From contig CAIYMO010000017.1 of assembly GCA_903927345.1 (NCBI GenBank), positions 124,001 to 188,000 on the forward strand: 64,000 nucleotides of DNA. Direction: 5' to 3'. The notes below the pieces were generated by a model that had not been told where the DNA came from, did not search any database, and was given only the letters and a program-made list of their open reading frames with translations. Each line of letters opens with the position of its first letter. Positions within the stretch are counted from its first letter, which is position 1. The DNA comes from an uncultured Armatimonadota bacterium (lineage in GTDB: Bacteria; Armatimonadota; Fimbriimonadia; Fimbriimonadales; Fimbriimonadaceae). Shown one piece after another: positions 20,886-21,505 of the stretch. The position numbers were made by a program, and so were the translations under genes.

Positions 20886-20922
20886 ACGCGCCGAAGAGAA
20901 ACTAGACGAACTCTCGAAGTAA
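20794..20922 (+). CDS. ccmD: CcmD-like small membrane protein embedded in the end of ccmC
   Basis: A 42-residue frame starting at ATG 20794, 92 bases inside ccmC in the +1-shifted frame, and ending 37 bases past it. It encodes one membrane helix (VLAALTSMLLWFGVCLMLL) followed by a charged helix (RTEKAIKRAEEKLDELSK). This is the shape of CcmD, which stabilises the CcmABC complex. The identification rests on size, topology and position after ccmC, because CcmD proteins share little sequence. Confidence 0.65.
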   Translation: MEIWKVLAALTSMLLWFGVCLMLLRTEKAIKRAEEKLDELSK

Positions 20923-20931
20923 CCCCAAAAG

Positions 20932-20993
20932 CCCCTCTCCCATCTATCTGATGGGAGAGGGGCCGGTAAGCGAAGCGAACCGGGGGTGAGGGG
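20932..20993 (+). repeat. Left inverted hairpin repeat
   Basis: CCCCTCTCCC (20932-20941) and GGGAGAGGGG (20953-20962) form a 10-bp hairpin that also contains CATC/GATG. It is followed by an imperfect CCGG...CCGG block and GGGTGAGGGG (20984-20993). The right copy at 21388-21432 is the reverse complement. Confidence 0.75.
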
Positions 20994-20998
20994 ACAAC

Positions 20999-21385
20999 CT
21001 ACCGCTCTCGCCGACGACTCTCACACAGCTTCAGTGCCGCCAGGATATGATCCTGATAAGGGGCGCTTGGATCAAGTTGGAAGAATTCGACATTAGGAAT
21101 TCGATAAGTGACGATCCCCATCCGCGCAAGGTAGATGTCCCGAATCTCGTCTCGAACGGGATCGTGTTGCTCACCATCAAGCTCAATGCAAACCTTCACT
21201 TCGGCACAGTAGAAGTCAAGTCGATAAGGTCCGATCGGATGCTCTCTCCTAAATTTGAACTCCTCTCTCCGAGCACGCAATAGTTGCCAGACAATCTCCT
21301 CCGCGACGGATGGCTCCTGACGCGCTTTCCGTGCCCGATCAATTTGCAATTTTGTTCGAAGTGGTCGCTTCCGTTGGGCTCCCAT
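20999..21385 (-). CDS. DUF559 endonuclease-like protein
   Basis: 128 residues from the ATG at 21385. The DUF559/Vsr-like nuclease fold signature is present: EFKFRREHPIGPYRLDFYC, then VKVCIELDGEQHD, then GIVTYRIPNVEF. The conserved Asp, Glu-x-Asp and Gln/His positions of the PD-(D/E)XK superfamily are visible. The biological role of DUF559 proteins is unsettled. The coding region is tightly framed by inverted repeats; the stop is six bases from the left copy, and the start is three bases from the right copy. Confidence 0.85.
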   Translation of the reverse strand: MGAQRKRPLRTKLQIDRARKARQEPSVAEEIVWQLLRARREEFKFRREHPIGPYRLDFYCAEVKVCIELDGEQHDPVRDEIRDIYLARMGIVTYRIPNVEFFQLDPSAPYQDHILAALKLCESRRRER

Positions 21386-21387
21386 TT

Positions 21388-21432
21388 CCCTCACCCCCAA
21401 CCCCCTCTCCCTTCAAACAGATGGGAGAGGGG
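21388..21432 (-). repeat. Right inverted hairpin repeat
   Basis: CCCTCACCCCC (21388-21398), then CCCCTCTCCC (21402-21411) and GGGAGAGGGG (21423-21432). Read on the minus strand it reproduces the left repeat: hairpin outside, GGTGAGGG block inside. Confidence 0.75.
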
Positions 21433-21491
21433 ACTGTCCATCTCCATCTTATCAAAACATCCAGCGTCAAATCAGCACAAGCACATTCAGA

Positions 21492-21497
21492 TAAACT
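21492..21497 (+). promoter_or_regulatory. -10-like hexamer for the methyltransferase gene
   Basis: TAAACT with an eight-base spacer to the ATG at 21506, no Shine-Dalgarno sequence. Confidence 0.35.
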
Positions 21498-21505
21498 CAT
21501 CCGAC

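Follow-up and report, generated by a model that had tools for sequence, protein, structure and literature searches.

What does a short nuclease gene do between two inverted hairpins, and does the arrangement behave as a mobile unit? The question arose from the 64,000-nucleotide stretch of DNA analysed here, which we refer to as the window. Direct reading of the sequence shows that a DUF559 gene in the window is bounded by two inverted copies of one compound repeat. Each copy consists of a C-rich/G-rich hairpin followed, on the gene-facing side, by a third arm, GGGGTGAGGG. The copies are mutual reverse complements in which the order of the parts is kept and the third arms point inwards. The original prediction, which placed a DUF559 gene between hairpin repeats that are reverse complements in the same order, therefore held. 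Its gaps of 6 bases on the left and 3 on the right were nearly correct; we read 5 bases at the stop-codon side and 2 at the ATG side. The features are as follows.

20923..21505, no strand: inserted segment, bounded by the stop of the ccmD-like gene (20920-20922) and the ATG of the methyltransferase gene (21506), defined by comparison with congeners
20931-20993, plus strand: whole left repeat copy (stem, loop, stem, small hairpin, third arm)
20931..20963, plus strand: left outer hairpin, a 14-bp stem GCCCCTCTCCCATC/GATGGGAGAGGGGC with loop TATCT (sequence; single-stranded DNA fold, z -5.4)
20964..20982, plus strand: small inner hairpin (CGGTAAGCGAAGCGAACCG) separating the stem from the third arm in the left copy (fold, sequence)
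20983..20993, plus strand: left third arm GGGGTGAGGGG on the inward side, nearly mirroring the purine stem arm, with A changed to T (sequence, mirror test)
20999..21385, minus strand: DUF559 nuclease gene (predicted PD-(D/E)XK, Vsr-like), 128 aa from the ATG at 21385 (Pfam PF04480 E 7e-21, invariant residues, AlphaFold model)
21388..21398, minus strand: right third arm GGGGGTGAGGG, ending 2 nt before the DUF559 ATG (sequence)
21402..21432, minus strand: right outer hairpin CCCCTCTCCC / ATCTGTTTGAA / GGGAGAGGGG (sequence, single-stranded DNA fold)
21432-21388, minus strand: whole right repeat copy, CCCCTCTCCC / 11-nt loop / GGGAGAGGGG / GGTT spacer / third arm GGGGGTGAGGG

When folded as single-stranded DNA, the window hairpins gave z values of -3.2 to -6.0. 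The DUF559 reading frame is open up to a TTG at 21400 (20999-21400), and the ATG at 21385, which yields 128 residues, is probably the true start. The right third arm (GGTGAGGG, 21385-21398) lies directly 5' of this ATG; we infer that it could conceivably double as the Shine-Dalgarno sequence, or ribosome-binding site, of the gene.

The protein scores 74.6 bits against Pfam PF04480, for which the curated cut-off is 20.6. Its invariant columns, in 133-aa numbering, are E34 W38 R52 D62 F63 E73 D75 H79 D84 R87; these take in the active-site columns D62, E73, D75 and H79, a core of conserved acidic residues and histidine. An AlphaFold model (pLDDT 85.7) matches PDB 3hrl, I-Bth0305I, PvuRts1I and Vsr and predicts a nuclease fold of the PD-(D/E)XK/Vsr-like type. 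The DUF559/YcjD/Vsr-like nucleases, among them NGO0050 (PDB 3hrl) and Caulobacter VsrA, belong to the same protein family as the window gene, and a repeat-related role is absent from the papers on them that we found. The product of a gonococcal gene flanked by such hairpins (locus L188) matches 3hrl over its entire length.

The repeat itself has a counterpart in the literature. It conforms to the intrastrand triplex motif TM/PIT, CCCTCTCCC-GGGAGAGGG-GGGTGAGGG, known as TM-ECO in E. coli (Hoyne 2000; Holder 2015, PMC4666352), with which it shares the order CCCTCTCCC-loop-GGGAGAGGG-loop-GGGTGAGGG, the inverted pairing, the intergenic position and the variability among strains. This identity is established for the pyrimidine stem arm, the purine stem arm and the mirror third arm; that the window sequence forms a triplex has not been demonstrated. 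E. coli K-12 carries 23 TM/PIT copies, with five pairs inverted; its motif forms a triplex in vitro, and the sites vary among strains (PMC4666352). The 2015 study saw no gene for mobility close to the motifs and attributed the variation to instability induced by the triplex, whereas here the motif is linked with DUF559 genes and with gene-bearing units.

Across loci the third arm repeats the purine stem arm in mirror order, mostly with one A-to-T change. Among the 156 best flank hairpins with a purine/pyrimidine stem, 128 had a third arm that agreed at least 80% with the mirrored stem arm; when arms were swapped between loci, 38% of hairpins did so. Most mismatches (91 of 114) were A/T exchanges. 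Stem and third arm also co-vary across families, GGGAGAGGG occurring with GGGTGAGGG, GGAGAAGGG with GGGATGAGG and GGAGGGG with GGGGTGG. A mirror repeat is required by a triplex and not by a plain hairpin. An Rfam search returned only sub-threshold matches, and identity of the Bosea-type repeat with the rhizobial mosaic element RIME was not confirmed.

Is the association of hairpin and gene more than fortuitous? In the 3.1-Mb source genome the perfect-hairpin pattern CCCTCTCCC-N4..34-GGGAGAGGG occurs three times, two of these at the single DUF559 gene, and a reversed control pattern does not occur at all; the presence of hairpins at DUF559 is therefore beyond chance. The same whole-genome search found no dispersed hairpin pairs, and the unit has not been amplified in its own genome.

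A scan of species genomes with a protein pattern derived from a 7-sequence alignment, made without regard to flanks, yielded 80 named DUF559 loci from Alphaproteobacteria, Cyanobacteria, Bacteroidota, Planctomycetota, Chloroflexota, Armatimonadota, enterobacteria and others. At 56 of the 72 loci with enough flank, the match between the left flank and the reverse complement of the right flank exceeded that of every window of the same spacing in the same locus. An inverted-repeat score of at least 44 was reached by 32 of 50 short DUF559 ORFs, compared with 1 of 366 controls drawn from the remaining ORFs of 100-200 aa at these loci. Further hairpin-flanked cases were seen in Sinorhizobium, Azospirillum, Deinococcus, Synechocystis and Neisseria. 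The triplex repeats of E. coli ycjD lie on its 3' side only. We did not find a paper linking DUF559 to TM/PIT repeats in the open-access literature searched.

Two of these neighbourhoods deserve comment in their own right. An unrelated, near-perfect hairpin (CACCTCATTCTGACAA/TTGTCAGAATGAGGTG) is located 5' of ycjD in E. coli K-12 (L072:7761-7802). On a plasmid of Synechocystis sp. B12 (L186, 2390-2836), a DUF559 gene accompanied by triplex-type repeats has hypothetical ORFs on one side and, on the other, a gene annotated as BREX pglX; it may have split a longer methyltransferase gene.

The sphingomonads provide a view of such units in numbers. One repeat type was counted in 14 genomes, with pair sizes taken from the listed hits. 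The inward-facing inverted pairs were bimodal in length, falling at 94-143 bp (mostly 96-105) and at 418-483 bp. All six long pairs encode DUF559 and none of the 14 short pairs inspected contains a gene. The inward-facing ends of the gene-less pairs are those of the DUF559 units. The arrangement is that of REPINs beside a RAYT unit (PMC2817692, PMC3116915).

In a tree of 16 sphingomonad DUF559 proteins, those with type i and those with type ii repeats each form one clade, across genera. Support for this split is moderate (83/89 and 93/90), and 0 and 1 of 500 shuffles gave values as low. Sphingomonas sp. PsM26 holds both types with the clade match intact. Repeat number follows the protein as well. 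In 47 genomes the type-i repeat count correlated with the best type-i DUF559 score (rho 0.70), with medians of 13 and 0.5 copies in the presence and absence of the cognate protein; in the 34 genomes not chosen through DUF559 the corresponding values were 14 and 0 (P = 8e-6). These association statistics ignore phylogeny, and the type-i query carries about seven residues read from the repeat. Two genomes have type-i repeats without a close type-i DUF559 (G089, 16 copies; G094, 11 copies). For proteins less than 50% identical, covariation of protein and repeat was not significant (Mantel test, 71 of 1000 permutations as high); it is clear only among related proteins.

If these units move, unoccupied versions of their sites should be found, and three cases were informative. 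The window unit is located at the junction of a ccmD-like gene with a methyltransferase gene, where G015 carries it too. In seven Fimbriimonas congeners (G001, G002, G003, G007, G008, G010 and G016) the spacing of the two genes is 0 to about 40 bp. The gap in G005 is longer and unrelated, and synteny is lacking in G011. The simplest history is a single insertion in the common ancestor of the window genome and G015. Second, a DUF559 unit of S. mali occupies the prfA-prmC junction, which six relatives possess without the element. Because these relatives are only 75-82% identical, the exact ends of the insertion cannot be fixed. The third case is the hrpB-mrcB gap of E. coli. MG1655 carries an 85-bp pair of inward-facing hairpins there, the occupant in F8111 is inverted, EH2252 has only one, collapsed hairpin, and four strains whose flanks are closely similar lack the repeat.

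No target-site duplication was visible at the short and long sphingomonad pairs or at the S. mali and E. coli sites, although divergence limits this conclusion for the gene-bearing units. The borders in Sphingomonas read AG|CCCC...GGGG|CT, which at most hints at a target. Gaps of roughly 400-500 bp at the S. mali site (L201) in seven other genomes (L257, L259-L264) were inspected and contained no DUF559. Azospirillum plasmids, considered as a source of empty sites, gave orthologous occupied sites and no clean empty ones. The G018 version of the window junction was likewise ruled out as a clean empty site; it is occupied by a different inverted repeat (ggagtgcggaaacttgtt...aacaagtttccgcactcc; G018:C1, L075 about 1120-1240), which has no match in the window's genome even with up to 3 mismatches allowed. 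In F8111-1SC3 (L271) the triplex pair is inverted with respect to MG1655, and its immediate flanks are apparently inverted too.

We consider it likely that the 0.5-kb segment is a mobile unit resembling REP/RAYT systems, with a Vsr-like DUF559 nuclease in the role of the transposase. The linkage, the mirror third arm, the gene-less miniature pairs, the matching of clade and number in sphingomonads and the empty sites are shown. Recognition, cutting and joining of the hairpin by DUF559 are inferred, and there are no binding or cleavage data. In the proposed mechanism, DUF559 would recognize its cognate triplex hairpin, probably in single-stranded DNA such as the lagging-strand template, and would nick or cut at the ends of its own hairpin. 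The excised or copied segment would then be joined at a new intergenic site by the nuclease together with host repair. Both the full unit, with the gene inside, and the gene-less pairs, served in trans, would spread in this manner, and the window unit would have been inserted between ccmD and the methyltransferase gene in its own lineage. Since a nuclease of this family has no known strand-joining activity, how units reach new sites is left open.

The original prediction had likened the locus to the relationship between REP elements and their transposases. This is supported, the linkage and mobility well and the action of the nuclease on the hairpin only by inference. It had further held that the linkage would be coincidental if the repeats bore no relation to DUF559 genes or if no empty site existed. 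Neither was observed, given the flanking across phyla, the clade-matched repeat type, the copy number that follows the cognate protein and the empty orthologous sites for the window unit, the Sphingomonas DUF559 unit and the E. coli gene-less pair. The target duplications that it proposed to look for at the edges were not seen.

The resemblance to REP elements, REPINs and RAYTs ("REPtrons") extends to a gene between two inverted palindromic repeats, dispersed inverted doublets of about 100 bp, repeats matched to their own protein clade, a mostly extragenic location and the lack of a long target duplication (PMC2817692, PMC3116915, PMC3733652). In sphingomonads, as in REP/RAYT systems, the repeats flanking the gene are also found as dispersed inverted doublets. 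Unlike in REP/RAYT systems, the enzyme is a PD-(D/E)XK Vsr-like nuclease rather than a Y1 HUH tyrosine transposase, and the repeat has a mirror third arm (triplex) and lacks the GTAG head; at the window, accordingly, there is no Y1 HUH tyrosine transposase gene between the repeats, and arms of the CCCCTCTCCC type have no GTAG head. The short gene-less derivatives that share the ends of a gene-bearing unit also recall MITEs and their autonomous parent transposons, from which the present units differ in having no DDE transposase and no clear target duplication.

Several genomes retain the repeats alone. In complete or near-complete genomes of another Armatimonadota family, hairpins number 35-121 and DUF559 could not be detected; the count of 121 is from G041 (one contig, 98% complete), and G047, G055 and G060 are similar. 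It follows that the repeats can persist without the gene or have another partner. G041:C1 has abundant inverted triplex pairs, and in the pair inspected (L071) the third arms point outwards.

Four other readings may be considered. The one that survives best, though we regard it as unlikely, is homing: hairpin pairs came first, DUF559 inserts between the hairpins, and gene-less pairs are the target, spread by something else. In its favor, DUF559 is like I-Bth0305I and Vsr in fold and profile, gene-less pairs share inward-facing ends with DUF559 units, and some genomes have many pairs and no DUF559. EDxHD homing endonucleases such as I-Bth0305I are selfish genes with a related nuclease fold and an E-x-D-x3-H signature; unlike them, the DUF559 units have no intron host, have short inverted hairpin ends and are accompanied by gene-less copies at many loci. 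Against homing, the type of repeat tracks the protein clade, its number goes with the presence of the cognate protein, homing alone makes no new loci, and gene-bearing units have orthologous sites without any repeat.

A second reading, to which we give very little weight, makes DUF559 a passenger, cargo or satellite, with the hairpins moved by another enzyme (a Y1 transposase/RAYT, or host recombination or repair). Fimbriimonas genomes do have Y1 transposase matches (2 in G000, 13 in G007), DUF559-free genomes retain many hairpins, and triplex repeats are unstable by themselves (PMC4666352). Against this, Y1 transposase is absent from G069, G063 and G061, the three most repeat-rich of the first 14 sphingomonad genomes, the units contain no gene other than DUF559, many phyla show the linkage and the matching is clade-specific.

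It is also very improbable that the hairpins are merely regulatory, serving an ordinary nuclease gene by ending transcription, controlling translation or setting mRNA stability. In one Enterobacter genome the same motif, present in 100 copies, was annotated as terminators, termination being the proposed function (PMC2869309), and the window third arm is directly 5' of the ATG. However, no terminator-like site (a stem plus a T tract) was called at either window repeat hairpin, RNA terminators need no third-arm mirror symmetry, gene-less pairs occur at many loci with presence/absence alleles, and earlier work cited in PMC4666352 found neither promoter nor terminator activity of the motif. The idea that DUF559 is a Vsr-like repair nuclease that protects the host by resolving triplexes and is retained beside them draws on the Vsr-like fold and on a Caulobacter DUF559 protein tied to SOS induction upon loss of DNA methylation (PMC12907096), but is all but excluded, as it leaves unexplained the gene between inverted hairpins, the two size classes and the rise of repeats with the gene.

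Returning to the mobile-unit reading, TM/PIT repeats are on record for hundreds of bacterial genomes, E. coli K-12 among them, with no agent of spread known, and the large DUF559 family, for which a structure has been solved, has no settled role. Their link gives both a testable function, points to a protein that may recognize DNA triplexes in vivo and would mean that the REP/RAYT way of life can be reached by a second route of different chemistry. A bolder version, which we are marginally more inclined to doubt than to accept, is that DUF559 nucleases mark out a class of bacterial mobile DNA in its own right, made up of sub-kilobase units in which the sole protein, a Vsr-like PD-(D/E)XK nuclease, recognizes and mobilizes a triplex hairpin, and that such units gave rise to the TM/PIT repeats found in E. 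coli, cyanobacteria, rhizobia and many other phyla.

As a minor observation, the DUF559 ORFs of four loci (L140, L150, L169 and L177) read into the right-hand repeat and acquire a spurious C-terminal peptide of the PHPNPSPEGEG type; such tails in annotated proteins could perhaps serve to flag these repeats.
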